Positions 31,303 to 48,265 of a stretch of DNA of 64,000 nt are shown piece by piece. The notes below the pieces were generated by a model. That model made no database searches and was not told the origin of the DNA. It was given only the letters and a program-made list of their open reading frames with translations. The translations under genes were made by a program, and so were the position numbers. The DNA is taken from assembly GCF_000170795.1 (NCBI RefSeq), contig NZ_ABCM01000013.1, positions 62,001 to 126,000 of the forward strand, given 5' to 3'. Position 1 is the stretch's first letter, and each line of letters begins with the position of its first letter. The stretch is from Pedobacter sp. BAL39 (GTDB lineage Bacteria; Bacteroidota; Bacteroidia; Sphingobacteriales; Sphingobacteriaceae).

Positions 31303-32619
31303 TTATGTCTTCAGCATCTCCAGAATACCTTCATTTTCAATAATCAGCATCCCCTGCCGGTCTGTGGTAATCCCTTCCTGCAACTGATAGGTGTACCTTG
31401 GCACATGGCCATCCATAACTGTCGGCAGGTAGCTGAACCCGACATTCCTGCAGCGCTCCTGTAAGGCTGTACCCACCTCAATAATATGCGTGGAAATGAT
31501 AAAAAAGCAGTTGCGGTATTTGGAGAAGGCCTCTGTTACAGCCAGGGTAGCATCATAAGCGTCCTTCACGTTGGTCCCTTTAAAGAGCTCGTCAAACAAT
31601 ACCACCAGATGCTGACCTGTACCAACAGATTCGGCAGCATTTTTTACGCGAAGGACTTCCGCATAAAAATGGCTGTACCCCAAGTTCAGGTCGTCAGGAA
31701 CGTTAATGGAAGAATACAGGCCGTCACATACCGAAAATTCCATTTGCCTGGCCGCTACGGGAAAGCCCATGTGCGACAGGTAAACGGCTATTCCAAAGGA
31801 CTTCATAAAGGTAGACTTCCCAGCCATGTTTGCGCCGGTCAGGAAAATCATATTCTGCTCCCGGCCCAACGACAGCGGATTTGCTACGCCTTTCATTAAT
31901 CCCGGGTGCCACAGTCCGGCGCTACGCATACAGTTTGCCTCCTTTGGCAACGCCAGCGCATAACTAAAACCACGTTCCCTAGCCACCAGGCTCACCCCGA
32001 TGTAAACATCCAGCAGGCAGATGCCGTTCAGCAGGGCCCCCATCTGGAGCTGCAAAGTGTGTTTCAGTAAATGATCATACCAAGCAATTTTCATCAGCGG
32101 AAGCGGAAATACTTCGCTCAGCAAGTCCCTTATCCCCTGCTCGTCCAGGATCGCACTTATTTGTTTACGGGATTGTTCAAAAGGACTTCCTGCATCTCGC
32201 CCCATCTCCAGCATCAAGCGCTGAAGTTGCCGCAAGACTTCAACAGTAGCATTCAGCCCGGCAAGCAGCTGACCAAACTGTTCATCATGCAGGAACACGG
32301 CAAGAGCCTTTTTATGGAGTAGTCCTGTTGTGGCCAGCAGGAAATTAGCGGAGGTGCCCGTGTTGAGATAGGTTTCCGCCTTTTGAAAAGTCAGTCCATC
32401 TACCGGAAATTTCAGCTGTTTATTCTGAAAGTAGCGGAACATGTTGCTGCGCGTATTGATGGCCTCCACATCCACCATGGGATGTTGAAACATCTCCTGC
32501 AACTTGCGCTCGCCACCGGTAGTATGCAGCTTATTGAATAGGCTAAAAATAGAATCCGGGCGGTATTTACCCAATAGATTCAGGTCGTCCAAGGTTTGTT
32601 TATCTGCGATAAAGCTCAT
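31303..32619 (-). CDS. Short MutS-like ATPase, copy B
   Basis: The ATG at 32619 (MSFIADKQTLDDLNLLGKYR) gives 438 residues. Residues 1-230 are helical like the MutS lever/clamp core; the ATPase follows: Walker A FLTGANMAGKSTFMKSFG, the MutS loop YSSINVPDDLNLGYSHFYAE, Walker B LVVLFDELFKGTNVKDAYDA and FFIISTHIIEVG. The mismatch-recognition and connector domains of true MutS are absent, as are the MutS2 Smr nuclease and KOW parts. It is therefore not a standard repair MutS. It is the tandem paralogue of the gene at 32627-33982, with 7 bp between them. Confidence 0.88.
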   Translation of the reverse strand: MSFIADKQTLDDLNLLGKYRPDSIFSLFNKLHTTGGERKLQEMFQHPMVDVEAINTRSNMFRYFQNKQLKFPVDGLTFQKAETYLNTGTSANFLLATTGLLHKKALAVFLHDEQFGQLLAGLNATVEVLRQLQRLMLEMGRDAGSPFEQSRKQISAILDEQGIRDLLSEVFPLPLMKIAWYDHLLKHTLQLQMGALLNGICLLDVYIGVSLVARERGFSYALALPKEANCMRSAGLWHPGLMKGVANPLSLGREQNMIFLTGANMAGKSTFMKSFGIAVYLSHMGFPVAARQMEFSVCDGLYSSINVPDDLNLGYSHFYAEVLRVKNAAESVGTGQHLVVLFDELFKGTNVKDAYDATLAVTEAFSKYRNCFFIISTHIIEVGTALQERCRNVGFSYLPTVMDGHVPRYTYQLQEGITTDRQGMLIIENEGILEMLKT

Positions 32620-32626
32620 ATTTCTT

Positions 32627-33982
32627 TTAATTAATCGGCTTTTTATGGATCCGCTCAAGACCCTTTCTCAGGATCTCCAGGATGCCTTCATTGTTAATGA
32701 TGATCATGCCATGGCGGTCGGCCGTCAGTCCTTCCTCCAGTGTATAGGTATACACCGGTTTGTTTCCATTCATTTTGGTGGGCAAAAAAACGAACTGGAT
32801 ATGGTCATTGCGTTCTTTCAGAACCTCACCCGCCTCAATGATGTGCGTGGAAATGACAAACATGCTCCCTGGTTTATGTGCAAAAGCTTCCGTAAAAGCA
32901 ACAGTGGCCTCACAGGCGTCTTTCACATTTGTACCTCGGAACAACTCATCAAAAAGGACAAAGAGCTGCTTCCCGGACTGCAGCTCCGCAGCAATTTTCT
33001 TAGCGCGTAAAACTTCAGCATAAAAATGACTGGCCCCCATCCCCAGGTCATCGGGCAGGTTGATGGTGGTGTATATGCCATCCAGGACAGAGAACTCCAT
33101 TTCAGCAGCGGCCACAGGGAAACCCGCATGTGCCAGAAAAAGTGCGATGCTGAGCGACTTCATAAAAGTCGACTTTCCCGCCATATTAGCGCCGGTCAGA
33201 AATATGACATTGCTGCGCTCATCTATGCTGATGTTGTTGGCCACAGCATTTTTTACCTGAGGATGGTATACCCCTTTCAGCCGCAGCAGGTGCCGGTCTC
33301 TAGGTAATGCTTTGGGGAAGATGAAACCGCGCTCCATCGCCACACGCGCTACCGACTGATAGACATCGAGCTGATAAACATACGTCAGCAGCCGTTTTAC
33401 CTCATCCCGGTAACGGAACCGCAGCAATGCATCATACTCCGCAAATACCGCAGCTGAAAGACGTCCTTTTCTGGGCCTGCTGAACAGCACGGAGAAAGCA
33501 TTCGAATGAAGCTGTGCCCGGATCGCCTGGTAGTCGACGAAATAGCAGTGCCCTGCTTCGAGCTGCAAAGCGCCAATAAAATCACGCAGACCTTGCAACA
33601 GATCAGTTAAGGCAGTGATGCCATTGTGGATAGTAGTCGTCTCTGCATCCGTTGCCACCAGATTACTCAGTCTTTGGGTTACCGAATGGTCCTGCGCGGA
33701 CAACTTTGTGCGCTCGTCAGTATTGCTCAGGTAAAGTTCCGCAGCATCAAACCAGGCGGTGGCGAAAGGAAATTGCCAGTTCATTGCGGCAAAATATTGA
33801 ATGATGCCGCTGCGCTTATTCACCGCATCGGCATCAGACAAGGGATATTGGAACATCGCCTCCAGCAGCGCTGCCCCACCACGGGTATTCGTCCTGTTGA
33901 AAATCTGGTACACGGAATCGCTTCCGTGTTTACCAAATATATTCAGGTCATCCAGTGTTTGTTTATCTGTTGTAAATAACAT
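32627..33982 (-). CDS. Short MutS-like ATPase, copy A
   Basis: The ATG at 33982 (MLFTTDKQTLDDLNIFGKHG) gives 451 residues; an upstream ATG at 34075 lies inside the GldFG gene. The layout equals copy B: helical core, then Walker A FLTGANMAGKSTFMKSLS, YTTINLPDDLGMGASHFYAE, Walker B LFVLFDELFRGTNVKDACEA and FVISTHIIEAG. The two copies share the opening T-D-K-Q-T-L-D-D-L-N and the closing region MIIINNEGILEILRK / MLIIENEGILEMLKT. Different sequences but one design suggests a heterodimer, as ATPase sites of MutS proteins act in pairs; this is inference. It starts 4 bp after the ABC gene. Confidence 0.88.
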   Translation of the reverse strand: MLFTTDKQTLDDLNIFGKHGSDSVYQIFNRTNTRGGAALLEAMFQYPLSDADAVNKRSGIIQYFAAMNWQFPFATAWFDAAELYLSNTDERTKLSAQDHSVTQRLSNLVATDAETTTIHNGITALTDLLQGLRDFIGALQLEAGHCYFVDYQAIRAQLHSNAFSVLFSRPRKGRLSAAVFAEYDALLRFRYRDEVKRLLTYVYQLDVYQSVARVAMERGFIFPKALPRDRHLLRLKGVYHPQVKNAVANNISIDERSNVIFLTGANMAGKSTFMKSLSIALFLAHAGFPVAAAEMEFSVLDGIYTTINLPDDLGMGASHFYAEVLRAKKIAAELQSGKQLFVLFDELFRGTNVKDACEATVAFTEAFAHKPGSMFVISTHIIEAGEVLKERNDHIQFVFLPTKMNGNKPVYTYTLEEGLTADRHGMIIINNEGILEILRKGLERIHKKPIN

Positions 33983-33986
33983 CTGT

Positions 33987-36299
33987 TTATTTTCTTTTAC
34001 GTCTGATGAGCAGTACAGACCCGCCGGCCAGCAGCAAAGCTGGCAACACCCATATGAAGGCAATCTTACAGGCATTTACTCCTGCCGAGGTGATCTTCAT
34101 GCGCTTGTCTTTAGCTTCCGGCCGGGAGGTATCAATCGGAAACTCTCCATAGTTCAGCCAGCTATACAGTGCGGTGTTGAAGATGAAGTTGGCTGTTTTC
34201 ACGTTGTACCTGCCCAGCTCACTGTTACTCATAAAATCGGCGTCACCGCTTACAATGATCCGTTGTTCTTTACCGTTGATCTTCCTGCTCAGTGCCAGCA
34301 CTGTAGGAAACGACCGCCGTATATCTCCATTGGCAGTACTGAAAACCACTGCCGCGGAATCAGCAACGAATTTTCCCTTTTTAAGCCAGCTCAGCCCACT
34401 GCTGGTCATCAGCAAAGGGTGATAGTTGAATCCTGACTGCTCATGATAGGCGAGGGCAACTGCTCCGGGTGTCGAAACAACTGTACTATCCTGAAAACTT
34501 TCGGTCAGCATCTTCGTAAATGTAGACGCAAAAGGCGTAACATTATTCAGTACCAGGTCTGGGGACAAATCTTTACTCGGCTGCACCAGCGTGCCCTCCA
34601 GCATTTCCACGCCCAGCTCCTGCAGGACGGGGGCAAGCACATCTCTTTTTTCCGGCTCGCCGGCAACCAGCAGGTTGCCACCCTTTGCGACATAAGCTTT
34701 AACCTTTGCCAACGTTGCAGGGCTCATGGCCGACTTAGGATCTGCAATGACCAGGATGGAAATGTTCTCAGGAACGTCGCTGCTTTCCAGTGAGAGGGTG
34801 TCCACATCAAAACCCTGATTCACCAGGGCATACCTGAAGGTCTTCAGTGTCGTTAAAGTCTGGTATTCCCGATCTCCCTTTTTGACAATGTCCCGCTCCA
34901 GATTTCCGGTAAGAAAAGCGACCTTCGGCAGCTTCGCCGACATCAGGCGCTTGAAAGCAGCGGAGACCTCCGTTTCACTCGGAAACATCTGCTGATCATC
35001 ATACACCCTGAGGAAGGTGCTTTTATCTTTATACTTCAGCTGCATCACAAAGCGGTTCAGCTCGGGCTTCAGGTCAATCAGCTTATGGATCTCTTCGGGT
35101 GTTTTGAACATCGACAGGTCGAGCCTGAAGTTCTTGGCACTCAGGTCTGCAATCTGTTTCAGGTTCTTGCCCTCATACTGTTTATAAAAGTAATTGTGGT
35201 CATCAGGGATGCTGTCGTAGTAGTTGACATACTCAAATTTAATGTCCGGCTTGAAGCGCAGGTAAGGCTCCCATACCGACAGATACCTGTTGCGGGCTTC
35301 TGGAAGACCCGCATATACATATTGTCCCAACAAGTTATTGTACACTGTGATCTCCAGCTCCTCCTTGCCCAGTTGTTTGATGATCTTCTGTGCATTTGGC
35401 GTAAGGGTATTGCTTTGATTGGTCGTAGTATCCCAGTAACCAATCAGTCCGGGTCTGGAACTGGCGTAACCAATTGCCAGCGCCGAGACGATGATGAAGG
35501 CATACTTACCAGCTTTAACGACAAATGGTTTGGATTCACGCCCGGCTTTCATCTTAAAGATGGTCAGGCCCAGGAAGATGTAGACGATAATCAGGAAATA
35601 GATGACATCCTTGGTCATGATCATCCCGTTCAGCATATGCCCGGTTCTTCCGGAGAGCGACAGGAAATAGGTCAGGTCGCGTACAAAATCATATTGCTGC
35701 CAAAGGGTCCCGATATAACTCAGGATACCGATCATCACGAATGTGCTCACCGCGGCCACGACCTGGTAAGTGGTCAGGCTGGACATAAACAACCCAATTG
35801 CCGAATAGGCACACAACAAAAGGAAGAAACCCAGAGCACCCGACATCAGGATTCCTGTATCTACTTCTTTGATGTGAAATAAACCGGCAAAGAGAAAGAT
35901 GCCAACAATGGCGACCAGCACGAGGCTGTAGACCAGCATGGCCAGGTACTTACCAAAGACGATCTCCTGCACTTTCACCGGTGAGGAGTATAAAAGCTTG
36001 ATGGTACCGCCATTAATTTCGCGGCTGATCAGCCCCATCGTTAGCAATGGGATATACAGGTAAAGGTTCTGCATCACACTGCTAAACAAGCCTCCCTGTC
36101 CGGTAAAGATCCTGTTGGTCAGTTGAGTCATATATTCCAGGCCCCTGCCGCCCATCTCCTGACTACGCACATTGCTGTCGACCATACCCATATAAGTCAT
36201 GGCACATTGTACGAGGAACACGATCATAAGGAACCAGGCAATCGGGGAATAGAACAGGTTCCGTAACTCTGTTCTTGCTATTTTAAATATAATATTCAT
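33987..36299 (-). CDS. GldF-GldG type ABC permease/auxiliary fusion
   Basis: A 770-residue protein. Residues 1-260 form an ABC-2 permease with about six membrane helices and the family phrase LLTMGLISREINGGTIKLLY SSPVK region; residues 290-730 form the GldG-like ABC auxiliary domain (LTPNAQKIIKQLGKEELEIT, VAFLTGNLERD, SILVIADPKSAMSPATLAKV), ending in one membrane helix and a basic tail. In Flavobacterium GldF and GldG are separate gliding/secretion-linked ABC parts; here they are joined. It pairs with the ATPase gene upstream (8 bp). Substrate unknown; no other gliding genes are in the window. Confidence 0.87.
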   Translation of the reverse strand: MNIIFKIARTELRNLFYSPIAWFLMIVFLVQCAMTYMGMVDSNVRSQEMGGRGLEYMTQLTNRIFTGQGGLFSSVMQNLYLYIPLLTMGLISREINGGTIKLLYSSPVKVQEIVFGKYLAMLVYSLVLVAIVGIFLFAGLFHIKEVDTGILMSGALGFFLLLCAYSAIGLFMSSLTTYQVVAAVSTFVMIGILSYIGTLWQQYDFVRDLTYFLSLSGRTGHMLNGMIMTKDVIYFLIIVYIFLGLTIFKMKAGRESKPFVVKAGKYAFIIVSALAIGYASSRPGLIGYWDTTTNQSNTLTPNAQKIIKQLGKEELEITVYNNLLGQYVYAGLPEARNRYLSVWEPYLRFKPDIKFEYVNYYDSIPDDHNYFYKQYEGKNLKQIADLSAKNFRLDLSMFKTPEEIHKLIDLKPELNRFVMQLKYKDKSTFLRVYDDQQMFPSETEVSAAFKRLMSAKLPKVAFLTGNLERDIVKKGDREYQTLTTLKTFRYALVNQGFDVDTLSLESSDVPENISILVIADPKSAMSPATLAKVKAYVAKGGNLLVAGEPEKRDVLAPVLQELGVEMLEGTLVQPSKDLSPDLVLNNVTPFASTFTKMLTESFQDSTVVSTPGAVALAYHEQSGFNYHPLLMTSSGLSWLKKGKFVADSAAVVFSTANGDIRRSFPTVLALSRKINGKEQRIIVSGDADFMSNSELGRYNVKTANFIFNTALYSWLNYGEFPIDTSRPEAKDKRMKITSAGVNACKIAFIWVLPALLLAGGSVLLIRRKRK

Positions 36300-36307
36300 G
36301 ATTAAGG

Positions 36308-37237
36308 CTAAACGTTTGAAGGGGTAGACAACTGTTTAAATATTTCATCCAGGGAGCTCTTATCGAGGTTGATCTCCCTGAGCTTCCAGCCATGCTGCAC
36401 GCTGGCAGCGATGACGGTTTCTGCAATCTGCTCGTCACCATTGAAGTAAAGCCTCACCTGACGCTCTGTGAGGAAGTCGACCTTAGTGATGCCATCTATC
36501 GCGAGGAAGGCTGCCGCCGCCGGTGGATTTTCCATGCGCATCAGCACGCTATGTGGTTCCACATAATTGTTAAAGGCATCCATGGTGTCGGCAAAGACAA
36601 TGCGCCCGCCTTCAATCATCGTGATGTCCTTGCACAGCAGCTGCACCTCTGTCAGGATGTGCGAGGAGAAAATCACCAGGCGATCTGTCGCAATTTCCTT
36701 GATGAGTGCACGGACTTCGATGATCTGGTTTGGGTCCAGCCCGTTTGTAGGCTCATCGAGCACGACCACAGCCGGGTGATGGATGATGGCTTGTGCAATG
36801 CCCACGCGCTGGCGGTACCCACCGGAAAGGTTGCCAATCAGCCTGCTGCTGAAATGGGTAATGCCACAGCGCTCTTTAGCTTCAGCCACGGCAGCCTTGA
36901 TTTCTCTCTTAGGGATAAATCGCAGTTCCGCACAATAAGTCAGGTATTCATCCACCGTAAGGTCAAGGTATAGCGGTGCATTCTGGGGCAGGAAGCCGAT
37001 CTGTTTCTTCGCGAGCTCCGGCTGCTCCCTTACATCAATGCCATTAATGTATACCTTGCCCTCGGTCTGGTTCAATACCCCGCAGAGGATGTTCATCGTG
37101 GTTGATTTGCCGGCGCCATTGGAGCCCAGCAGTCCTACAATGCCACTTTTATTGATCTCCATGTTGATGTCGCGGATGGCCCATGAGCTGCTGTACTTAT
37201 GCGACAGGTGCTCGATTTTTATGATGCTCTTTTCCAA
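36308..37237 (-). CDS. ABC transporter ATPase, GldA-like
   Basis: A 309-residue ABC ATPase: Walker A LLGSNGAGKSTTMNILCG, Q-loop region IGFLPQNAPLYLDLTVDEYL, signature LSGGYRQRVGIAQAI, Walker B AVVVLDEPTNGLDPNQI and switch His in VIFSSHILTEV. The last 90 residues are the C-terminal extension seen in drug-type and GldA ATPases. It would drive the GldFG permease encoded next. The gap to the TlpA gene upstream is 45 bp. Confidence 0.9.
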   Translation of the reverse strand: MEKSIIKIEHLSHKYSSSWAIRDINMEINKSGIVGLLGSNGAGKSTTMNILCGVLNQTEGKVYINGIDVREQPELAKKQIGFLPQNAPLYLDLTVDEYLTYCAELRFIPKREIKAAVAEAKERCGITHFSSRLIGNLSGGYRQRVGIAQAIIHHPAVVVLDEPTNGLDPNQIIEVRALIKEIATDRLVIFSSHILTEVQLLCKDITMIEGGRIVFADTMDAFNNYVEPHSVLMRMENPPAAAAFLAIDGITKVDFLTERQVRLYFNGDEQIAETVIAASVQHGWKLREINLDKSSLDEIFKQLSTPSNV

Positions 37238-37282: not shown

Positions 37283-37846
37283 TTATTTTTTGATCAGCGC
37301 TTTTGCTGCATCTATGGTGAACTTACCGTCTACCAGCAGTTGGATCACCTCATCGTTTAGGTTGCTGGGATGTGTCTGCCAGACGAGCTTGTTGTTCTGG
37401 ATGATGAAGGTCTGCGGGATGCCAGTCACCCCTGCCGCTTTTACCCACTTCTTATCGAAGTCGCTGCCCTCAGGGCCGCTGTAGGCAATGGTGTAACTTA
37501 AACCATCTCCCATCTCCTTGACGAAGGCATCGACTTTGGACCTATCGCTCTCCATCACATCCTGACCAATAAAAACCACGTTTTTATCTTTGAACCTGAG
37601 GTGCATGGCATTCAGGTGCGGCATTGCAGCGATGCAGGGTTTACACCAGGTGGCCCAAAGCTCCACGATGTAGATTTTATCTTTCTCAAAAGCTTTTACA
37701 GGTGTCCCTTTTATCCATTCTACATTTGGATATTCGGGGATGATGTCGTCACCGATATCCGGGAAATCGGCAAACTGCTGGGCGCTTAAACTTGTGGACA
37801 TTGCCAGTAACAGCAATGCCATCAGGGGCATACATAGTCTTTTCAT
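37283..37846 (-). CDS. TlpA-like thioredoxin-fold protein with CxxC
   Basis: The ATG at 37846 (MKRLCMPLMALLLLAMSTSL) provides a signal peptide ending at LSAQQ; the product is 187 residues. The active site is IVELWATWCKPCIAAMPHLN, followed by the cis-Pro loop GVTGIPQTFII. It should act as a periplasmic thiol-disulfide oxidoreductase. It starts 7 bp after the stop of the other thioredoxin-fold gene, which lacks CxxC. Confidence 0.9.
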   Translation of the reverse strand: MKRLCMPLMALLLLAMSTSLSAQQFADFPDIGDDIIPEYPNVEWIKGTPVKAFEKDKIYIVELWATWCKPCIAAMPHLNAMHLRFKDKNVVFIGQDVMESDRSKVDAFVKEMGDGLSYTIAYSGPEGSDFDKKWVKAAGVTGIPQTFIIQNNKLVWQTHPSNLNDEVIQLLVDGKFTIDAAKALIKK

Positions 37847-37853: not shown

Positions 37854-39011
37854 TTATTTAACTGCTTTTTCAAGTTCCAAACCAAGCTCCGCATCCGTTA
37901 ATGCCAGGCGTCGCATGAGAATTTTCCCGTCGGGGCCAATGAGAAAGCCTTGTGGAACAGCACCCAGGCTTAGGCCATAAGCTTTTGCGGTCTTGCTGAT
38001 CGCCTCTTTGTTGCCTATGCCTCCAACGTCGGTGGTATGTACCCAGTTGTAGGTGGTGGCCTTCATGGCTTCGCGCCACCTGCTGTCTTCATCATAACTG
38101 ACTCCCAGTATCACGAAGTTTTTATCTTTAAAGCGTTTGCTTACTTTTCTCATGTTGACGGCGAAAGAATCAAAGCCGAACACGTTGCTGATCCAGAACA
38201 GCAACATCACATTTTTACCCTTTAGCGAGGACAGCGTAACGGGGTTCCCCAGGCTATCCTTTACCGTAAAATCCGGGGCTACGTTACCGATAGCCAGCTT
38301 TTTGGAAAGCTGGATCCGCTCGGCGAAGAGTTTCCCCTGCTCCGTATTGCGGACAGCTGCAGAGTAGCGGTTGAAGCCTTTGATGCCCTCATCTTCGATG
38401 AAACCTCTTTGTGTCTTGATCCAAAGCAGAAAAGCAGCATAACTGTCGGGGCTGGCGGCAATCCAGGCGCTGTCGATCTTCTCCTGCTGCGCCAGGATCG
38501 GGGCAATCTGCTTCTGCAAAGCCTCAGCAGCTTCCATGTTACGTTCCATGCGCATCTTTGCCTGCTGTTCCGCCAATGGCCGATACTGGTCGTTCAGTGT
38601 TTTCAGCAATGCTACACGATGTAGGTAATCGGCCTGTCCCTTACCTCCCGTGACTGCCGCATTGCCGATGCTGTCGGCACTCACAATTTTTATGGTGCCA
38701 CCCTCGACAAAGAAACCTTTGTAATCGCTCACCCTTCCCATTTTGGGCCCGCCCTTATTATCCGAAAACTGAAGGCTGGCAAAATAGGGGTCACCTACTT
38801 CTCCCTGCAGACTGAAAGCGCCATTGCGCACGATGGCAGAGTCCCTGACATAGGTATTCGGGTGGCTATTGTATTGAAGGATTACCTTTCCCTGGATGTC
38901 TTTGGCAAGCTGTCCGTTAATGGTAAATTTGTGCTGTGAAAAGGCCGGGGCGGACAAGGCGGTGGCCATGCCTACGCATAGGCTGCACTTAAATAATGTC
39001 TTTAAAATCAT
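37854..39011 (-). CDS. DUF4369/redoxin-fold protein without CxxC active site
   Basis: A 385-residue secreted protein (signal peptide ending APAFSQ). Residues 25-240 are the DUF4369 beta domain plus helical linker (HKFTINGQLAKDIQGKVILQ); residues 240-385 are a TlpA/AhpC-TSA fold: VAPDFTVKDSLGNPVTLSSL, GKNVMLLFWISNVFGFDSF, GVSYDEDSRW, LGAVPQGFLIGPDGKIL. Where active members have WCxxC, this one has WISNV, so the redox cysteines are gone while the cis-Pro loop stays. It may bind rather than oxidise. Co-directional with the TlpA gene (7 bp) and the PKD-like gene (90 bp). Confidence 0.86.
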   Translation of the reverse strand: MILKTLFKCSLCVGMATALSAPAFSQHKFTINGQLAKDIQGKVILQYNSHPNTYVRDSAIVRNGAFSLQGEVGDPYFASLQFSDNKGGPKMGRVSDYKGFFVEGGTIKIVSADSIGNAAVTGGKGQADYLHRVALLKTLNDQYRPLAEQQAKMRMERNMEAAEALQKQIAPILAQQEKIDSAWIAASPDSYAAFLLWIKTQRGFIEDEGIKGFNRYSAAVRNTEQGKLFAERIQLSKKLAIGNVAPDFTVKDSLGNPVTLSSLKGKNVMLLFWISNVFGFDSFAVNMRKVSKRFKDKNFVILGVSYDEDSRWREAMKATTYNWVHTTDVGGIGNKEAISKTAKAYGLSLGAVPQGFLIGPDGKILMRRLALTDAELGLELEKAVK

Positions 39012-39101: not shown

Positions 39102-40607
39102 TTACCGCAGGCGTTCGCGGTAGGAGATGCTCGCGATTTTTCCAAACCCGGTCCAGCGGTCTGCGAGCACCAGATCTGCATTGACCGTCGGCACGGCATA
39201 ACGCTCCAGCACACCACTGGTGGCGGGTGCTGCCGGGCTGTAGCTTCCTACGTTAAGCAGCTTGGCCCAGCCGCCATAGGTCGCATTGGAGGCCCTGTTG
39301 AAGAAGCTGGGGAAAGCCAGGTACGTAATCTCTGAATCGCCCTTGTCCAGCATCAGCTTGCTGGTACGCAGGGAAAGGTCATATTCATAAAGTTTACCGC
39401 CAACGCTATAAAACAGGTAACCCAGATCAGGGCTCACAGCATAGTGACTGGCCAACGCAATGTCGGTCCCCGTCATCTCCTGATAATACGATGAGGCCCC
39501 GCCAACGGCAAACCGCAGCATATAGATCTTTGAGGTTTGCGGATTTTTGAGTACCGCATAGGCATTACCCGAGTAGTTCCGCTCCATATACAGCAGATCG
39601 TTTCCCGACGGATAGTTCAGGCCATCGGGCACGTCAGACACCGTGACATTTGTGATTGCTGAGGTGCTCACAAACTTTCTCTTGCTCTTGTTATACATGA
39701 CAAAAGCATTTCCATCCGTGGCTACGTAAGGTGCTACAGGGAAGGGCGTCTGTCCCGAAGAATACGTATTTACCGGAACATAGGGCCATGCCGAAGAGGA
39801 CAGGAAGGCGCGCACATAGATATTGTCGTTGGCCATCAGGAACAGGTTGGTAAAGATAAACTGCGTGGCGCCGTTCATCGCATTGGCTTTAAATCCGGCA
39901 GGCACATTTCCCAGCATCTCATAACGGATGTCATAAGTGGGCAGATAATCGAAGGTCTCGGAATGGATGCGGCTGGTGCCGGTTTCTGTCATCAGGTAGA
40001 TGCGGTAGGTATCGGCTGTACCCCCACCAGAGAAGGCGGTTTCCGCGCAATATACCTGGTAAGGTTTCCCCTGTTCCGGCAGTCGCGAGCCCATCTTCGC
40101 CAGCACATCCGTAAACTGGCTGAACTTCTGGGTGGCCCTGCTGTAGGAAAGCATGTCGAGGCGGCTTTTTCCAGCCACCTCATTCAGTACCAGGAAACCT
40201 TCATATACCTCCGTAGTGACGGTCAGCGTAGTTTTGCTGTGGACCTCAACACCCGTGTTCAGGTCTTTCACACGATACTGGAGGCTATAGTTACCTGGCG
40301 CGATGCCAATTTTAATGCGCAGTGTTTTTGAGCTGGACAATACAGAATCCGGTGTCTGGTCATTGTTCCGGTCCAGTGCCCATTGGTAGCTGTAGGAATT
40401 GCCACCTGCTTCCTTTATGCTCTCCGCCAATGAGGGTGCCACAATCAGGCTGTCCCCGAAGTAAGCAGTATATCCGGAAGTGGTATCAAAGTTTTCAATA
40501 GTTACTTTATTAATCTCACGATAGTCATAATTCCCGAGGTCCTTCGAGCAGGAAAGGGAAAAAGATGCTGCCAGAGCAACCATGATGTATTTTTTAATCG
40601 TTCTCAT
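39102..40607 (-). CDS. PKD-like family lipoprotein
   Basis: A 501-residue lipoprotein (MVALAASFSLSCSKDLGNYD). The first 150 residues contain PKD-type strands (SYSYQWALDRNNDQTPDSVL, GNYSLQYRVKDLNTGVEV); the remainder resembles the beta-propeller-like part of Bacteroidota PKD_6 proteins (YLFYSVGGKLYEYDLSLRTS, VLNEVAGKSRLDMLSYSR). Such lipoproteins accompany SusC/SusD pairs and DUF4843 genes and probably bind substrate on the cell surface. Gap to DUF4843 is 36 bp. Confidence 0.82.
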   Translation of the reverse strand: MRTIKKYIMVALAASFSLSCSKDLGNYDYREINKVTIENFDTTSGYTAYFGDSLIVAPSLAESIKEAGGNSYSYQWALDRNNDQTPDSVLSSSKTLRIKIGIAPGNYSLQYRVKDLNTGVEVHSKTTLTVTTEVYEGFLVLNEVAGKSRLDMLSYSRATQKFSQFTDVLAKMGSRLPEQGKPYQVYCAETAFSGGGTADTYRIYLMTETGTSRIHSETFDYLPTYDIRYEMLGNVPAGFKANAMNGATQFIFTNLFLMANDNIYVRAFLSSSAWPYVPVNTYSSGQTPFPVAPYVATDGNAFVMYNKSKRKFVSTSAITNVTVSDVPDGLNYPSGNDLLYMERNYSGNAYAVLKNPQTSKIYMLRFAVGGASSYYQEMTGTDIALASHYAVSPDLGYLFYSVGGKLYEYDLSLRTSKLMLDKGDSEITYLAFPSFFNRASNATYGGWAKLLNVGSYSPAAPATSGVLERYAVPTVNADLVLADRWTGFGKIASISYRERLR

Positions 40608-40643: not shown

Positions 40644-41456
40644 CTAGCGGTAGGCCGCCCCCATCATCATTGTTGTAGTGCCGTCAGCCTCATATACTGT
40701 ATTGCCGGCCAGCACCTGGTCCTGCAGGTAACGGCTCATGAAAGCGGCGTAATAGCTGGCAAGGGCATTCCGCTGTTTGATGTCTGTAATTGTATTGGCG
40801 ACCGACCAGAAATCAAGCGGCATTCCGGCGATCTGATTCAGCAGCGAGACTTTCTTCTCCGAGAAAGTACCGAAGTAAACGTTGCCCCATGATGGTCCGG
40901 GAGCAAGAATATCGGAGACCGTCACCTGAAAGGAAAGCAGCTTGATGGTATCTGCACTGGAAGCACCCCTGTCGAGGTACCTTACCTTCAGCTCAGTAGC
41001 AAAATCCTTGTTGGCATTCAGGTGAAAAATCGCTTTCACGCCCTTTGTCTTCAGGTCCGGTGCCCGCTTCAGCTTCAGGAAAATGGTATCCAGCACACGT
41101 CCTCCATGAAAGATAAAGGTCTGGGGAAGCTCAAAATGCTGTGCGGTGGCGGTCGACAAGGGGTCGACGCTTAAGCTGAACTCCCGGTCGGCTGCGGCCG
41201 GTACGCCAGTTACGGCCACTGGAATGGGAAGGATGATACTGGTTACCTCAGGTGCCTGATAGGCGAAGGTGAGGTCTGCCGTATCCGCAGGGAAGCCCAG
41301 CTCCTGTTGCTCAGGATTCACATCTCGGAAGTAGTTGAAGTAAATATTATCGGCCGTATTATAAGTAGTCAGTGTCGATTTTTTACACGATGACATCGCC
41401 GTCATCAGCAGAAAAGACAAGGCTATCATTTGTTTTAATGTTTTCATCATCTTCAT
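40644..41456 (-). CDS. DUF4843 lipoprotein
   Basis: A 270-residue lipoprotein (LLMTAMSSCKKSTLTTY) with the DUF4843 pattern: YNTADNIYFNYF near the N-terminus, DTADLTFAYQAPEVTSIILP, VTGVPAAADREFSLSV and a GRVLDTIFLKLKRAPDL strand. The family occurs almost only in SusC/SusD-type loci and is thought to be a surface accessory of the importer. Start is either 41456 or the Met at 41447. Gap to susD is 11 bp. Confidence 0.85.
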   Translation of the reverse strand: MKMMKTLKQMIALSFLLMTAMSSCKKSTLTTYNTADNIYFNYFRDVNPEQQELGFPADTADLTFAYQAPEVTSIILPIPVAVTGVPAAADREFSLSVDPLSTATAQHFELPQTFIFHGGRVLDTIFLKLKRAPDLKTKGVKAIFHLNANKDFATELKVRYLDRGASSADTIKLLSFQVTVSDILAPGPSWGNVYFGTFSEKKVSLLNQIAGMPLDFWSVANTITDIKQRNALASYYAAFMSRYLQDQVLAGNTVYEADGTTTMMMGAAYR

Positions 41457-41467: not shown

Positions 41468-42880
41468 TCAACGTGGAGTAGTTTCTGAAAGCGGCAATGG
41501 CACAATGTAGGATGGTGATACGGTTGAATAAACATCCATTCCACTCGGTACACTACCTTCCCGCTTACGTTTATAATAGAAGAACAACTGTCCTTCGCCC
41601 CAGAATTCCTTCTGGTATTCTTTCCTGAGCTCTGCAGCAAGATCAGCTGTTGGTTGCAGATCTGCCAGTCCGCGGTTGTGGCGTACCTGGTTCAGGTAAC
41701 CGATGCCCGTCTGCGGGTTGGCAGCTGTCTCTGCGAGGATGTAATACATCTCCGATTTGCGCAACATGGGCTGAAGGAAACGCCAGGTCTTGGTTTTATC
41801 TGCCGGATCGGCGAACTTGAAAAATGTAGGATAATTCTGGATGGTCGTCAACCACGTGGTCGTATACCGATAGTCGTTTTCATTACCTTCAAAGATATCG
41901 CTCAATCTGTCCGGATCCGGTCGCAGGATGACAAGTTCAGTGACATCCGGACTGAATGAGGCGGTATAATTGGTATACATCTGTGGATTATAGACCGCAA
42001 AAAGCACTTCCGGAGAAAAGATTCTATCGGGGTTTGCATTCGACACGATGTCACTGTAAGGCATCCATGGAAACCAGCGTTCCCCTGCATCCAACACCGC
42101 TTTGGCGGCGGCATTCGCCTCCTGGCTCCGTCCTGCCCAGAGGTAAACCCTGGCCGTCAGCGCTTTAACCGCATAAAAGTTCAGGCGTTGGTTGCGATAT
42201 CCGCCATAGAAATTCGCGTTGTTCTGCAGCCCTGCCTGGGTGATGGGATCATTCGCCAACAAAGCGGCGGCGGCATTCAGGTCGGCAATTACTTTTTCCA
42301 GCACCTGGCTGCTGTTGAGCACCGGCTGCGAGGTGCCATCTGCCAGGGTATAGTAAGGAATTGCAGGCGTCTGCGCCCCCTCAGTGTGTGCAGGGCCGAA
42401 CAAACGGAGCAGGTCAAAATGCAGCAGTGCACGGATCGCCAGTGCCTCCCCTTTAAGTATATTGCCATTGGCTGCTGTCAGCACCCTGCCATTGATGGCA
42501 CCGTCTATCCTGGACAGAAATAAGTTGGCGGATAGGATTGTGGTGTATGCTTTCTTCCAGAGGTTATCCATTTCTGTCTGTACACTCCCTTGCTGGTACT
42601 GGTATTGCTGCAGGTAAGAGAAGCTGAGCGATCCTGAAAAGGGCGTCATATAACGCTGCCCCAGGACTTCAATGTTGGTATTGCTCAGGGCTGATCCATA
42701 TAGGCTATTGTCTGCCAGGTCAATATACAAACCGTTTAATGCCTGCTGCACTGCAGATTCATTTTTGAATACCTGGTCTTCTGTATAGGCGCCTTCCGGC
42801 TGTACGTCCAGATATTTTGTACATCCTGTCATCAGCAGCAATGTGGAAAGCAATGCGATGAAATGAGTTTTTATAGTCAT
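41468..42880 (-). CDS. SusD/RagB-family substrate-binding lipoprotein
   Basis: A 470-residue lipoprotein (LLLMTGCTKYLDVQPEGAYT). SusD marks are the helical TPR-like core (VFKNESAVQQALNGLYIDLA, LKGEALAIRALLHFDLLRLF), YYTLADGT, a TPR-region VKALTARVYLWAGRSQEANA and the C-terminal LAAELRKEYQKEFWGEGQLF. It lids the SusC pore encoded just upstream (17 bp). The sequence gives no sign of carbohydrate-active enzymes nearby, so glycan is not the obvious substrate. Confidence 0.92.
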   Translation of the reverse strand: MTIKTHFIALLSTLLLMTGCTKYLDVQPEGAYTEDQVFKNESAVQQALNGLYIDLADNSLYGSALSNTNIEVLGQRYMTPFSGSLSFSYLQQYQYQQGSVQTEMDNLWKKAYTTILSANLFLSRIDGAINGRVLTAANGNILKGEALAIRALLHFDLLRLFGPAHTEGAQTPAIPYYTLADGTSQPVLNSSQVLEKVIADLNAAAALLANDPITQAGLQNNANFYGGYRNQRLNFYAVKALTARVYLWAGRSQEANAAAKAVLDAGERWFPWMPYSDIVSNANPDRIFSPEVLFAVYNPQMYTNYTASFSPDVTELVILRPDPDRLSDIFEGNENDYRYTTTWLTTIQNYPTFFKFADPADKTKTWRFLQPMLRKSEMYYILAETAANPQTGIGYLNQVRHNRGLADLQPTADLAAELRKEYQKEFWGEGQLFFYYKRKREGSVPSGMDVYSTVSPSYIVPLPLSETTPR

Positions 42881-42897: not shown

Positions 42898-45800
42898 TTA
42901 AAAAGTAGCATTGACACTAAATGAAGCCGTGCGGGCATATGGATAAGAGATGCCCCGTTCCGTTTGTATTTTCTCCAGACGGAAGATGTCATTTGCATAA
43001 AAGCTGATGCCCAGCGACTGCACCTTTAGTTTTCTGACCCATCCTGCGAAGGATCGCCAGCCGATGTTGAAGGACTCACCTATAAAATGGGTATCTTCTT
43101 CTACAAAACGCGATGACATCGGGCTTCCGGCATACTCACCGATGCCAATAAACTGGGTTACATCACCCGGTTTCTGCCACCGGTTATACAGCGCCCGTTT
43201 GTCCAGGTTATAAATCTGTGTGCCTCCGTCTATGTTTTCGACTTTGTTAAAAAGTGCACTGTTGAATACACTGCCTTTGACGCGGTAGCGTAACATCGCC
43301 GAAAAGGTAAAGTCCTTATAGCTGAGGGAAGTATTGATGACCCCCTCCATTTTCGGGCGGAGGTTACCTACCCTGACAATGTCATTAGGATCGTAGGTAA
43401 AAGTCAGCGAGCCATCTTTTTTCTGAAAGATTTCTCTTCCTGTTGCGGGGTCTACACCTCTCGAGACCACCGCCCAGATGTCGTCAGGGCTATAGCCATC
43501 ATAAAAACGGCTCAGTCCACGACTCTGACGTTGTTCTTCATTCAAGGTCGCCAGCGTGTTGCCCAAGCCTCCGTATTCACTGGTGTAATTGCTACCGGTG
43601 ATGCCCAGGCTCCATATGATGCGTTTTTCCACATTGTAGACCGGTGAAACTTTCAGGTTTAACAACCAGCCTTTGGTGGTCAGGTGTCCTACGTTTAACA
43701 CGTAGTTTGAATTTACACCCGCGGAAGAAGGCAGTGTGCCGGCAGCAGCAACTGAAAGCGGGTCCGTGTTTTTATGGTAATATTCCACATAACCACTGAT
43801 GCGGTTGTTGGCAAAGGCAAAGTCGAGCCCATAGCTATCCTGCAGGGTCTTCTGCCAGTCGAGCGAAGGATTACCAAGACTTGCCATAGAAAGGCCTTGT
43901 CCGAAGTTATTGTTGTTTCCCGCCTGAAACTGATAGGTAGATACCGAGCTAAACTGACCGAGGTTTTCATTTCCGGTATACCCTATATCGCCGCGGATTT
44001 TCAACAGGTTGATCCATCTGACATTTCTAAGAAATTTCTCCCGATGGATGTTCCAGCCAAGCCCCCCGGAAACAAAGGGTTTAAACAAATGGTCAGAGCC
44101 GAAAACACTGGCCCCATCCAGGCGATACACCACATCCAATAGAAACCGTTGGTCAAAGCCGTAGTTGGCACTGGCCAGGAAACCGACACTTCGCGCTTCC
44201 GTGACCGCGGACGCAGGGACGCTAAAAGGCACATAGCCATAAGCAAAAGCAGGGTTCCCATTTGTACCGTAGGGAAATCCTGTTGCAGAGAACCCGGTCA
44301 TATCGGCCGCAGTACGTTGCACATCCCCCCTGACGTTGGCATTGAGCTGATGTTTACCGATCACCTTCGCATAAGTCAGCATGAGGTTGGCACTGTAGGC
44401 GGAGTTGTCCGTCTTGCCGCTGGTGTAAAGGCCTTTCTGATGCAATTCCACATTGTCAAACTGTGAATTGTCCGGCGGCACAAATAATGTCGTAACATTG
44501 TTTCCCTTGGACAGCTGAAGCCCACCTTGCAAGCGAAAGCTGTCGGAGATGGTCAGGATGGCCTGTGTATTGTTAAAAAATGAAAAGATCTTATTCTGGT
44601 TGATGCTCTCCAGAGTCGCATTGTATAGTGGGTTGATGGCCGTCATGTCGTACACCGGATCCAGATATTTGGGGATGGTCCCATCTTCGAGTTCTTTCCT
44701 GAAAAAGGGATTTGCGCGGGCGAAGTTCTCAAAAGAGCCGTAGGGAGATTCCGTCGCCTTGCTGCCGGATACAGAAAGCATGTTGTTGACATTGATGCGC
44801 CCCTTCCGGTAGGAAAGGTTCATGTTACCGCCAAAAGTCTCTCTTCCCGATCCCTTCATTGCTCCACCCTGATTGCCGTAAGAAGCACCCGCATTGAACA
44901 TAAAATCGCTATTACCACCTCCCAGCTGAAGCGAGTGTCTATTGGTGATGCCAATCCGTACCGGTTCATTGAGCCAGTAGGTGTCTACTCCCCGCTGCAC
45001 TTCAGCAAGCCTGCTGTTATATTTCTCTTCGCCGATCCATGGAAACTGAACGCCTCTATAGATTCCTCCCGAAAGCCGTTCATATTCCAGCTTTTCAGCA
45101 GCATTCATCAGGTTGTAACTGCTCAGATCCGGGAGGTCCATCGAGAAGTCACCTGTATAGCTGATCTGCAACTGTCCGGGTACCGGGCGTTTGGTTTCAA
45201 CTACAATGACCCCATTGGAAGCTTTCGCCCCGTATAGTGCTGTTGAGGCCGCATCTTTCAGGATGGTCACTGAGGCCACCCTGTTCATATCAAGGTCGTA
45301 GATCTGCTGAAGTGTACTCTCAAACCCATCCAGGATAAATAGCGGCTGGTTGGGGTCGGCATTGAACTGGTTGTTCAGGTCGGAAGTACTGATGCTCGTC
45401 CTGCCGCGCACCTCAAACTTAGGCATTGTGTTCGGGTTAGACCCCTGCAGGTTATTCTCCACTTTGATGAAGGAAGGGTCCAGGCTCTTCAGGCTTTCCA
45501 GCAGGTTTTTGTTGCCCACAGCCTTCAGCTCCAGCCCTGTGAAAGTGCTTGCTGAGCCCGTGAAGCTGTCCTTTTTGCGGACGATACCCGTACCGGTAAT
45601 GACCACATCATCAATAGTGTTCGTCGCCAGGGACAAATTGAGTTCCAGAAACCTGAGGCCTCTGTTCACCTTGATCTCCATAGGCTCGTATCCGATATAG
45701 GTGATCAGCAGCGTCGAGTTTTCCTCCAGTCCGGAAATTAAAAACTCCCCTCTTTGGCCGGTTACAAACCTTCTCCGGGATCCTTTTATCGTAATAGTGG

Positions 45801-46254
45801 CTCCCGGAAGCACGTTGCCATCCGCACCACGGACTACACCGCCGATATTGATGAGGTCGGGAAAGTCCATTCCAATCCAGGCGAGGATGGAAGTAGGTTT
45901 CTCCTTGATGACTACTGTATTTTTATTGATGGTATACTCCAGGGGCTGGCCTTGGAGCACCTGATCCAGCGCATCCAGAAAGGAGACTCCTGATAATCTG
46001 ACGGTTACAGGTTTAGCGGCTTTCAAAACACCATCAGTATAAATGAAATCATAACCACTCTGGTTGCTGATCTCATTCAGAATTTTATTTAAAGGGCTGT
46101 TTTTTCCAGTCAGGCTAATTTTTTGTGCGTAGGTTGACGCACTCACCTGTATAAATGTTGCGAATAGGATTACGGTAGTTAGTCGCACAATAAGCAATAG
46201 TTTATGAATACACCCGCTGGGTATACCCGGTTTGTTGGTATAAATTTTATACAT
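42898..46254 (-). CDS. SusC/RagA TonB-linked outer-membrane protein with STN domain
   Basis: The ATG at 46254 (MYKIYTNKPGIPSG) gives 1118 residues; an ATG at 46278 is also open. After a long N-terminus with hydrophobic signal (LLLIVRLTTVILFATFIQVS) comes the STN domain (SPLNKILNEISNQSGYDFIY), the carboxypeptidase-type domain (GGVVRGADGNVLPGATITIK), the plug with VDDVVITGTGIVRKK-type opening and KDAASTALYGAKASNGVIVV, and the barrel ending in aromatic FSVNATF. The STN domain talks to the FecR protein encoded upstream, so uptake and transcription are linked. The 147 bp between fecR and susC allow a separate promoter. Confidence 0.93.
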   Translation of the reverse strand: MYKIYTNKPGIPSGCIHKLLLIVRLTTVILFATFIQVSASTYAQKISLTGKNSPLNKILNEISNQSGYDFIYTDGVLKAAKPVTVRLSGVSFLDALDQVLQGQPLEYTINKNTVVIKEKPTSILAWIGMDFPDLINIGGVVRGADGNVLPGATITIKGSRRRFVTGQRGEFLISGLEENSTLLITYIGYEPMEIKVNRGLRFLELNLSLATNTIDDVVITGTGIVRKKDSFTGSASTFTGLELKAVGNKNLLESLKSLDPSFIKVENNLQGSNPNTMPKFEVRGRTSISTSDLNNQFNADPNQPLFILDGFESTLQQIYDLDMNRVASVTILKDAASTALYGAKASNGVIVVETKRPVPGQLQISYTGDFSMDLPDLSSYNLMNAAEKLEYERLSGGIYRGVQFPWIGEEKYNSRLAEVQRGVDTYWLNEPVRIGITNRHSLQLGGGNSDFMFNAGASYGNQGGAMKGSGRETFGGNMNLSYRKGRINVNNMLSVSGSKATESPYGSFENFARANPFFRKELEDGTIPKYLDPVYDMTAINPLYNATLESINQNKIFSFFNNTQAILTISDSFRLQGGLQLSKGNNVTTLFVPPDNSQFDNVELHQKGLYTSGKTDNSAYSANLMLTYAKVIGKHQLNANVRGDVQRTAADMTGFSATGFPYGTNGNPAFAYGYVPFSVPASAVTEARSVGFLASANYGFDQRFLLDVVYRLDGASVFGSDHLFKPFVSGGLGWNIHREKFLRNVRWINLLKIRGDIGYTGNENLGQFSSVSTYQFQAGNNNNFGQGLSMASLGNPSLDWQKTLQDSYGLDFAFANNRISGYVEYYHKNTDPLSVAAAGTLPSSAGVNSNYVLNVGHLTTKGWLLNLKVSPVYNVEKRIIWSLGITGSNYTSEYGGLGNTLATLNEEQRQSRGLSRFYDGYSPDDIWAVVSRGVDPATGREIFQKKDGSLTFTYDPNDIVRVGNLRPKMEGVINTSLSYKDFTFSAMLRYRVKGSVFNSALFNKVENIDGGTQIYNLDKRALYNRWQKPGDVTQFIGIGEYAGSPMSSRFVEEDTHFIGESFNIGWRSFAGWVRKLKVQSLGISFYANDIFRLEKIQTERGISYPYARTASFSVNATF

Positions 46255-46401
46255 TTGTTTGGTTTGGTTGAGCAGCATGTCGATGTTTCGAAGCGGTGAC
46301 AGCTGCCAGTTAACAGTTGATAAATTTATTTATTGATACAGTCAAACCCATACCAGGTCCCGGTGGTTCATCGTGGCCTGGTTGTTTGTTTTCATAAGTA
46401 G

Positions 46402-47565
46402 CTATTTCGTCACCACGATCCTCCTTCCTTCGACTTTAAATTTTACTTTTCCGGTGAGTTCAAGGGACTTCAGAACTTCGGATACATGCTCCGACCGGGA
46501 CATAGACCCGATAAACTTGTCGTCGGGCAGCGCCCCCTCAAAGACCACTTCTACATCATACCACCTGGACACCATGCGCATGATGTATTGGATGTTGTCG
46601 TTCTCAAACATGAACTTGTTGTTTTTCCAGGCTACAGCAAGCCTTACATTGAAGTCCTGAACCCTGATGCTACCGCCGGTCAAAACAGCCTGTTGACCCG
46701 GTGTGAGCAATGCTTCCCGCCCCTTGCTGACCACCTTTACAGATCCTTCCAGCAAGGTGGTCTTGAGCTGAGGCTCGTCATGGTAACTATTGACATTAAA
46801 ATGTGTGCCCAGCACTTCAATTTCCTGATTCCCTGCAGATACAATAAAAGGATGCCGGCGGTCTTTCGCTACCTCAAAGTAACCTTCGCCGGTGAGTTCC
46901 ACGCGACGTTTTTTTGCGGACGAGAAATTGGTAGGGTATTTCAGTGACGAGGCAGCGTTGAGCCATACTCTGGAGTTATCGGGCAGGACCACCATATACT
47001 GACCACCTCTCGGGGTCTCGATGGTATTGAAGCCATTATGTCCGGCAGATTTCGTGGCAGCGGCCTGGTAAACGATCTGTCCGTCTTCAGTTTTGGTGAT
47101 GCGGATGCCGGACTGCTGCGCCAGCTCCCCTTTGGCGGCATCCGTTAAAGAAATGCGACGCCCATCGGTTAAGGTTAGGATGGCCTTATTACCTCCCGGT
47201 GCGACATCATTGGCAAAGGTTACTGATGAAGTACCGCTATCAACACCTTTAAAAAGATAAAGGGCAAGAATGATCAGGGCAATTGCAGCAGCAATTCCCG
47301 CCGAAAGCTTCGGCCATAACCGGATGTTTCTTTTCCTAAGCGGCTGTGGCTGCTCCAGGATGTATCCCAATATGGCGGCAGCATCTTCATCGTTAGCCCT
47401 GTGACTCAACAAATCATCACGATTCCATATCTGATCGGCGAGTGCCTGGATGCCCTCGTCGTTATTGGGGTCTGACAAAGCTGCATCCCATTGCTGTGCT
47501 TCTGCTTCCGTCAGCATGTTGGTCTGAAATTGTTTAAATAAGTAGTTTAAGGTGTCCTTATCCAT
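46402..47565 (-). CDS. FecR-family anti-sigma/transmembrane signal protein
   Basis: A 387-residue protein: cytoplasmic N-terminus (KDTLNYLFKQFQTNMLTEAE), one membrane helix (LSAGIAAAIALIILALYLF), then the periplasmic FecR domain (TPRGGQYMVVLPDNSRVWLN, RVELTGEGYFEVAKDRRHPF, IEVLGTHFNVNSY) and the C-terminal DUF4974-type domain (FENDNIQYIMRMVSRWYDVE). It would hold the ECF factor encoded upstream inactive until SusC signals. Gap to the sigma gene is 103 bp. Confidence 0.92.
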   Translation of the reverse strand: MDKDTLNYLFKQFQTNMLTEAEAQQWDAALSDPNNDEGIQALADQIWNRDDLLSHRANDEDAAAILGYILEQPQPLRKRNIRLWPKLSAGIAAAIALIILALYLFKGVDSGTSSVTFANDVAPGGNKAILTLTDGRRISLTDAAKGELAQQSGIRITKTEDGQIVYQAAATKSAGHNGFNTIETPRGGQYMVVLPDNSRVWLNAASSLKYPTNFSSAKKRRVELTGEGYFEVAKDRRHPFIVSAGNQEIEVLGTHFNVNSYHDEPQLKTTLLEGSVKVVSKGREALLTPGQQAVLTGGSIRVQDFNVRLAVAWKNNKFMFENDNIQYIMRMVSRWYDVEVVFEGALPDDKFIGSMSRSEHVSEVLKSLELTGKVKFKVEGRRIVVTK

Positions 47566-47668
47566 AGTATCCGGTATAAAATCAGTGTAGACATCACACT
47601 AGATCATCATCCCTATATTGGTATGTCGGACAGCCAGAGGTTTCGGGGTAGCCGGAAATTAAAAAAAA

Positions 47669-48265
47669 TTAAATGAGCTTAAAAATCACTACCAGCGCCA
47701 CAATATCGCTGTGTTCGCTGATGTAGCTACGCAACGACCTCATTGCTACTTTCAGATGGGTCTTTACCGTCCCGCTGGAAATGTTGAGTTGTGCTGCCGC
47801 CTCCTCATACTTCAGTCCTTGCTGCTGACACAACCGGTACACCAGCTGTTGCTGCTTCGGAAGCTGGCGAATGCCATCCTCCAGGATCCGGCGCCCTTCA
47901 TTCAGCAGAATACCTTCTTCGGTTTCATTGTGCGTCTCCTGCCAGGAGCCGGCAAGGATCTTCTCTGCCTTTCTGTGCGTATCTCTGTTCCTGAGGATGT
48001 CTATGGCCCTCCGCTGCGCAAAGGTTTTCAGATAACCATGAAGGTTATAAATGCTGTTGAGCTTATCTCCCTGCTGCCAGATGTGCAGCATACTTTCCTG
48101 AACAACATCCAGCGCCAGCTCATCAGAGTTCAGCAAATGCCTGGCAAAACCATAAATCTCGGGATAATGATGGTTATAGATCTCAGTAAATGCATGTTGA
48201 TCCCCTAAGGCCGTTTTTTTCAGCAAAAGTTTTTCATCAATAAGGGGTTTCAGGGCCATGCTCAT
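47669..48265 (-). CDS. ECF sigma factor of the SusC/FecR module
   Basis: A 198-residue ECF sigma factor. The start at 48265 has GGAG 5 bp upstream, a rather good ribosome site for this phylum. Region 2 is FTEIYNHHYPEIYGFARHLL and ELALDVVQESMLHIWQ with LKTFAQRRAIDILRNR; region 4 is LPKQQQLVYRLCQQQGLKYE and AAAQLNISSGTVKTHLKVAM. The C-terminal hydrophobic tail (IVALVVIFKLI) is usual for this group. First gene of the long minus-strand run to 31.3 kb. Confidence 0.92.
   Translation of the reverse strand: MSMALKPLIDEKLLLKKTALGDQHAFTEIYNHHYPEIYGFARHLLNSDELALDVVQESMLHIWQQGDKLNSIYNLHGYLKTFAQRRAIDILRNRDTHRKAEKILAGSWQETHNETEEGILLNEGRRILEDGIRQLPKQQQLVYRLCQQQGLKYEEAAAQLNISSGTVKTHLKVAMRSLRSYISEHSDIVALVVIFKLI

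Follow-up and report, generated by a model that had tools for sequence, protein, structure and literature searches.

We analysed a 64,000-nucleotide stretch of the Pedobacter sp. BAL39 genome (hereafter, the window) and characterized one operon within it, a series of twelve co-directional genes on its minus strand (31303-48265). The series begins with an extracytoplasmic function (ECF) sigma factor and a FecR anti-sigma factor, continues with a SusC/SusD outer-membrane pair, two lipoproteins and two thioredoxin-fold proteins, and ends with an ATP-binding cassette (ABC) ATPase, a GldF-GldG fusion (GldFG) and two short MutS-like ATPases, MutSa and MutSb (Table 1). Places, strand and families agree with the initial annotation of this locus, and the same gene order recurs in dozens of genomes, so it is not a product of chance. 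We found that the linkage of SusC/SusD to the ABC and MutS genes is real, conserved and restricted to part of the Bacteroidota.

Table 1. The twelve genes of the operon, from its 5′ to its 3′ end (window coordinates).
Gene product	Coordinates	Strand	Evidence
ECF sigma factor	47669..48265	-	TIGR02985 125.2 bits versus cut-off 126.4; TIGR02937 (sigma70-ECF) above cut-off
FecR anti-sigma factor, transmembrane signal relay	46402..47565	-	PF04773 and PF16344 above cut-off
SusC/RagA TonB-dependent transporter with STN domain	42898..46278	-	TIGR04056 502.6 bits (cut-off 368.25); TIGR04057 51.7 (46.2); STN 43.0 (28.4)
SusD-like surface lipoprotein	41468..42880	-	PF14322 70.3 bits (cut-off 27); PF07980 28.2 (23.1)
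DUF4843 lipoprotein, accessory of the SusC/SusD half	40644..41456	-	PF16132 53.1 bits
PKD-like lipoprotein (PKD_2), accessory of the SusC/SusD half	39102..40607	-	PF16407 81.4 bits
DUF4369 and AhpC/TSA redoxin-fold protein without CxxC	37854..39011	-	Family match and sequence
TlpA-type thioredoxin-fold protein, WCKPC	37283..37846	-	Family match and sequence
ABC ATPase, ABC-2/GldA-DrrA type	36308..37237	-	Walker A, LSGG, Walker B and H-loop all present
GldF-GldG fusion	33987..36299	-	ABC-2 membrane part, large ABC_transp_aux/IFT52-like domain, C-terminal transmembrane segment (hydropathy)
MutSa, short MutS-like ATPase, DELFRGTN type	32627..33982	-	Domain III remnant and domain V
MutSb, second short MutS-like ATPase, DELFKGTN type	31303..32619	-	Predicted partner of MutSa

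The operon is tightly spaced. Recomputed gaps are 103 bp (ECF-FecR) and 123 bp (FecR-SusC) in its 5′ part, and none exceeds 90 bp downstream of SusC. The SusC/SusD half has gaps of 17 bp (SusC-SusD), 11 bp (SusD-DUF4843), 36 bp (DUF4843-PKD) and 90 bp (PKD-redoxin), while those of the ABC/MutS half are 45 bp (TlpA-ABC), 8 bp (ABC-GldFG), 4 bp (GldFG-MutSa) and 7 bp (MutSa-MutSb), which bears out the 4-45 bp originally given for the last six genes. The longest TlpA open reading frame (start 37894) overlaps the redoxin gene by 41 bp; the likely start is an internal ATG at 37846, which leaves a gap of about 7 bp. The longest MutS reading frames also start too early, and we placed the starts at about 33982 (MutSa) and 32619 (MutSb) because the N-terminus (S/T)DKQTL(D/E)DLN is conserved. 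No terminator-like site was found within any minus-strand gap of the operon, and the count of such sites was not clearly above shuffled expectation. The ECF gene is the probable switch of the operon.

Within the source genome (99.95% complete), eight of eleven MutS domain V matches form four tandem pairs. All four (the window, C38, C47 and C30) share the order ECF-FecR-SusC-SusD, variable genes, ABC-GldFG-MutS-MutS; the pair is fused at C47 (902 amino acids) and at C30 (889 amino acids), where the next genes encode an M16 peptidase and another GldFG. Two other loci, C42 and C44, combine SusC with ABC-GldFG and carry no MutS, giving six SusC-ABC-GldFG loci, four of them with the MutS pair. Against the 83 SusD-like matches of this genome, the system occupies a minority of SusC/SusD loci.

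We next turn to relatives. Using GldFG as the only bait, we fetched 74 loci (from Chitinophaga, Niastella, Pedobacter, Mucilaginibacter, Sphingobacterium and others) that yielded 73 ABC-GldFG units. SusD lies just upstream in 68 of these bait-selected units; SusC accompanies 61 and FecR 58, with an ECF gene in view in 56; several of the units without an upstream SusD end at contig ends. MutS directly follows ABC-GldFG in 52 units (38 with two genes, 13 fused and one cut or broken). The spacings in relatives are mostly below 20 bp for both ABC-GldFG and GldFG-MutS, and the two MutS genes mostly overlap by 4 bp. At L119 (6133-8667), a met-zincin gene separates GldFG from the fused MutS, and a relative of that gene follows MutS at C38 of the source genome (L009:7914-10445).

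Across the order, pair-type MutS genes are present in 51 of 301 genomes, and all 78 of their loci lie behind ABC-GldFG, 58 by coordinates and the other 20, from genomes in which no more than three GldFG candidates were scored, by reading the loci out. The 20 that were read out also carry SusC/SusD, and 19 have GldFG directly upstream (the exception is L119). Conversely, in 20 ABC-GldFG loci that lack MutS, ECF/FecR and SusC/SusD are present as far as the contigs extend (L133 ends at a contig end). A phylum-wide sample of 395 genomes contains the pair in three, source genome included, belonging to its own family and one other. The ABC-MutS block is thus the opposite of one that occurs mostly without SusC, and even the MutS-less ABC-GldFG loci carry SusC/SusD. 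The coupling between the two halves, which the initial annotation had proposed from order and spacing, is strongly supported by these counts, and the two halves very probably form one system. A second core arrangement was also observed: at L141, L142, L144, L145, L146 and the source genome's L170 (C44), ABC-GldFG lies between ECF and FecR, ahead of SusC/SusD, and MutS is absent.

We compared identities and distances in 48 complete loci. The median pairwise identity is 26% for SusC/SusD, as opposed to 68% for the ABC ATPase, 50% for GldFG, 55% for MutSa and 52% for MutSb. Distance matrices correlate most closely for SusC with SusD (0.98), MutSa with MutSb (0.95) and ABC with GldFG (0.94); correlations within the core range from 0.79 to 0.95, compared to 0.62-0.67 between SusC and the core. 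When the SusDs of five system loci were compared with 19 ordinary ones from this genome, the two kinds were interspersed, and the system SusDs clustered no more than shuffled labels do. Because SusC/SusD diverges, the core stays similar and the system's SusDs scatter, the comparison shows a portable core (ABC ATPase and GldF-GldG fusion, usually with MutSa and MutSb) that has repeatedly been joined, within one gene cluster, to ECF/FecR and to widely differing SusC/SusD receptors.

The names GldA and GldF denote resemblance only, as both proteins score below the curated equivalog cut-offs (277.8 versus 402.6 for the ABC ATPase against GldA, and 81.4 versus 288.5 against GldF). A separate, better-scoring GldA relative is encoded elsewhere in the genome (C47:265637, 360 bits). 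GldF and GldG form a single 770-amino-acid fusion rather than separate genes, and the IFT52 matches in the GldG part are weak (E 0.0015). No positions in ABC or GldFG were found that separate loci with MutS from loci without it, and we therefore propose no contact surface. Two variants of the permease genes were observed. Loci L136, L138, L148 and L149 have the order GldFG-ABC-GldFG, with one ATPase flanked by two permeases and accompanied by DUF4843 and PKD-like lipoproteins, which suggests a heteromeric permease. In a very stable subtype, the two MutS genes are fused, and downstream of them lie an M16 peptidase gene and another GldFG (L012:7088-17165 at C30 of the source genome, and the Pedobacter loci L071-L089).

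MutSa and MutSb, each of about 440-450 amino acids, match MutS_V above its cut-off, retain a MutS_III remnant and have complete ATPase motifs with intact Walker A and B. A profile search gave no match in either protein to the mismatch-recognition, connector and clamp domains (I, II and IV), and a clamp-sized insert is not visible in the MutSa model, whose secondary structure was read by eye. The pair scores well below the equivalog cut-offs of MutS (NF003810; 118.9 and 145 versus 480), MutS2 (TIGR01069; 59.2 and 76.3 versus 400, with the SMR domain unmatched) and KamC (NF052383; 97.6 and 109.9 versus 300). We rejected a role in mismatch repair on account of the missing domains together with the fixed linkage to ABC-GldFG.

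The two genes have specialized separately. In a tree of 91 rows, the first genes form one clade (Shimodaira-Hasegawa-like approximate likelihood ratio test support 97) and the second genes another (98); the clades are sisters, and solo relatives fall outside them. The motif after Walker B is FRGTN in 42 of 42 first copies and FKGTN in 42 of 42 second copies, and the fused or separate state has changed at least four times. The monomer model of MutSa (predicted local distance difference test, pLDDT, 80.8) matches MutS structures and has a poorly ordered stretch of 50 C-terminal residues (pLDDT about 30-58), while the same region is ordered (71-91) in a model of the fused tandem (pLDDT 88; predicted template modelling score 0.81). 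This contrast is only suggestive of pairing, because the sequence and the alignment differ between the two models; compared with the PDB, the tandem model matched single MutS chains only, which carry no dimer information. As sister clades, co-varying distances, repeated fusion and model ordering point together, we strongly infer that the two proteins are ABC-class ATPases acting as an obligate heterodimer, dependent on the transporter and without a part in mismatch repair.

The MutS pair was never found without ABC-GldFG in the 78 loci, yet ABC-GldFG occurs without MutS, and placing the presence or absence of MutS on the GldFG tree requires at least 13 changes. Therefore, judged by its distribution, the pair is a dependent and conditional partner of ABC-GldFG, and such frequent changes are as expected if MutS were needed for some cargoes only. 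Solo MutS-like ATPases of 443 amino acids, which belong to the same family and occur in related genomes (L099-L103), were rejected as clues to function, since they lie in unrelated neighbourhoods and outside both pair clades. The source genome also encodes, at C31, a 605-amino-acid MutS-like protein (L014:8187-10004) whose length and place in the tree set it apart from both MutS1 and MutS2.

The remaining genes of the operon have counterparts in relatives. DUF4843 also lies between SusD and ABC in L022, L047, L050 and L121, and the PKD-like lipoprotein takes the same position in relatives. The redoxin indeed lacks CxxC, as first noted, and so does its relative in L121. We counted accessory genes, whether in the SusD-ABC interval or downstream of MutS, in 118 units (76 with MutS and 42 without). 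M16 peptidases accompany 43 of them, or 35 of the 76 with MutS versus 8 of the 42 without (Fisher P = 0.005, uncorrected for relatedness), and nearly all have an HxxEH motif; the window operon itself contains none. Other accessories in relatives are TlpA proteins and redoxins, met-zincins (DUF4953/5117), S41, S8 and trypsin-like proteases, and one methionine sulfoxide reductase. Glycan-degrading enzymes are absent from the window operon and are represented among relatives by one glycoside hydrolase family 2 gene (L109). Because accessory peptidases and TlpA genes recur while a glycoside hydrolase gene was seen once, the gene content favours peptides or proteins as the cargo.

The cargo had initially been described as peptide- or thiol-containing. 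The peptide part gains from these accessory genes, but the thioredoxin-fold proteins were ruled out as a special mark of the system, because TlpA-type genes are found in about 9 of 20 control SusC/SusD loci of the same genome (one control, L169, is the C42 system locus). By the same count, the premise that hydrolases are the normal addition to SusC/SusD loci holds only in part for this genome. Outside the operon, a divergent neighbour (48569-51244) encodes 891 amino acids that, read by eye, look like a fusion of a ThuA-type domain, a sugar dehydrogenase, a PKD domain and a cytochrome c.

Taken together, we tentatively favour a ligand-inducible, modular uptake system that spans both membranes and whose ABC-GldFG step is directed inward, an account that we regard as plausible rather than probable. 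SusD would capture the ligand and SusC would import it; this ligand is probably a small protein or a peptide. The STN domain of SusC would signal through FecR, releasing the ECF sigma factor and raising expression. Thiol and peptidase proteins would then process the ligand in the periplasm, the redoxin and TlpA here and M16 or other proteases elsewhere. ABC-GldFG would carry the ligand or its product over the inner membrane, most likely inward as a second leg of uptake, and the MutS heterodimer would spend ATP on the cytosolic side by remodelling or releasing something, for example the arriving cargo or the transporter itself. Quite possibly, the heterodimer is a dedicated cytosolic ATPase partner of the ABC transporter, the two together making up a portable stage for the second membrane that can be combined with many different SusC/SusD receptors.

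Several points weigh against inward transport. Characterized GldA/DrrA-type ABC-2 relatives mostly export, so that an inward direction has only a minority precedent, and the operon does not encode a separate periplasmic binding protein, unless the GldG-like domain serves as one. TlpA and peptidase genes are also common in ordinary SusC/SusD loci and, given the control count, describe the class of SusC/SusD locus rather than its ABC/MutS part. Export or immunity by the ABC part, as suggested in the initial annotation, would be one of several readings. The export bias of ABC-2 folds would instead suit a combination of import and self-protection, in which SusC/SusD takes up possibly toxic peptides (lantibiotic-like or other antimicrobials), an ABC-GldFG exporter clears the inner membrane and the MutS pair acts as a target-protection ATPase. 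The families nearest to the ABC ATPase after GldA are drrA and lantibiotic protection, a generic similarity, and DrrA/DrrB exporters are accompanied by a UvrA-like DrrC. MutS2, which splits stalled ribosomes (PMC10897456), likewise provides a MutS-family ATPase with a cellular target other than mismatches. However, the SMR and KOW domains by which MutS2 is recruited are missing from MutSa and MutSb, biosynthesis or immunity genes do not recur in the operons that we read, and the presence in one genome of several paralogues whose SusC/SusD differ strongly looks like the acquisition of many ligands. We consider self-protection unlikely.

It is more improbable still that ABC-GldFG is a mechanical or regulatory element, whose ATP-driven periplasmic GldG-like domain would act on FecR, TonB or SusC in gating or signal transfer while MutSa and MutSb modulate the ATPase cycle or the sigma factor. 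The location of ABC-GldFG between ECF and FecR, in five other loci and one of the source genome, fits such a signalling or energising role as well as it fits transport; the GldG-like domain is large, and variation lies in the receptor, with the core staying constant. Nevertheless, ECF and FecR distances are those that correlate least with the core (0.26-0.56), unlike those of a direct signalling partner, and most SusD-bearing loci manage without ABC-GldFG. The MutS fold and its ATPase motifs could also indicate action on nucleic acid, either because the ligand is DNA or RNA or because a repair or recombination factor merely shares the operon. That the pair lacks a nucleic-acid-binding surface is judged from absent domains and net charge only (a near-neutral lever, isoelectric point about 6.5-6.9); in addition, none of the 78 pair-type loci occurs without ABC-GldFG, no nuclease recurs in the operons read and full-length MutS1 and MutS2 are encoded elsewhere in the genome, which makes this explanation very improbable. 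Finally, internal promoters would be compatible with the sequence (the scan did not cover Bacteroidota promoters), as expected for two unrelated operons that are neighbours by chance or hitch-hiking. We rejected this explanation, which is close to untenable, because gene order is conserved in 68 of 73 units and in all MutS loci read, and distances co-vary.

In soil-type Bacteroidota, a regulated outer-membrane uptake pump thus repeatedly shares an operon with an ABC transporter of the inner membrane and, in the majority of copies, with a MutS pair that seems dedicated to the transporter and not to DNA repair. Little is established about how cargo other than sugars, once taken up by SusC/SusD, gets across the inner membrane. 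To our knowledge, no MutS-family ATPase is part of a transport system. A conserved core with swapped receptors offers a testable handle on both points. We found no literature describing this combination or tying MutS to SusC/SusD, GldG or TonB-dependent operons in a search that left subscription journals mostly outside; papers on DUF4843, PKD-like proteins and KamC yielded nothing relevant either. The SusC/SusD half is known in kind; for the conserved ABC-GldFG-MutSab core that accompanies it, there appears to be no earlier description.

The operon resembles SusC/SusD (RagA/RagB) import loci with ECF/FecR regulation in that SusC and SusD exceed their curated cut-offs, SusC has an STN domain, ECF and FecR lie upstream, and TlpA and lipoproteins are accessories. 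Ordinary SusC/SusD loci have neither ABC-GldFG nor MutS, whereas here the ABC transporter and mostly the MutS pair are constant and SusC/SusD varies; unlike a polysaccharide utilisation locus, the window operon has no glycan-degrading enzymes. The Fus system (FusA-FusC), where a protein is taken up through a receptor and cleaved by an M16 protease (PMC6071955, PMC6793856), and other protease-associated import (YddB-PqqL) share with many related units a TonB-dependent receptor genetically tied to M16. They differ in that SusC/SusD stands here in place of a FusA-like receptor, the window locus lacks M16, and ABC-GldFG and MutS have no Fus counterpart; the main text of the 2019 paper does not mention SusD, ABC transporters or MutS. 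Among named families, the gliding proteins GldA, GldF and GldG come closest to the ATPase and permease, and they share an IFT52-like stretch in the GldG part. In contrast to them, the proteins described here fall below the cut-offs, have GldF fused to GldG and occur as several paralogues tied to SusC/SusD. MutSa and MutSb share the domain V ATPase and complete motifs with MutS1, MutS2 and KamC, but are short, specialized in tandem, repeatedly fused and tied to a transporter. Two of those families provide precedents for MutS-family ATPases acting outside mismatch repair: ribosome-splitting MutS2 (PMC10897456) and KamC, which the NCBI family name describes as the reactivase ATPase of lysine 5,6-aminomutase.

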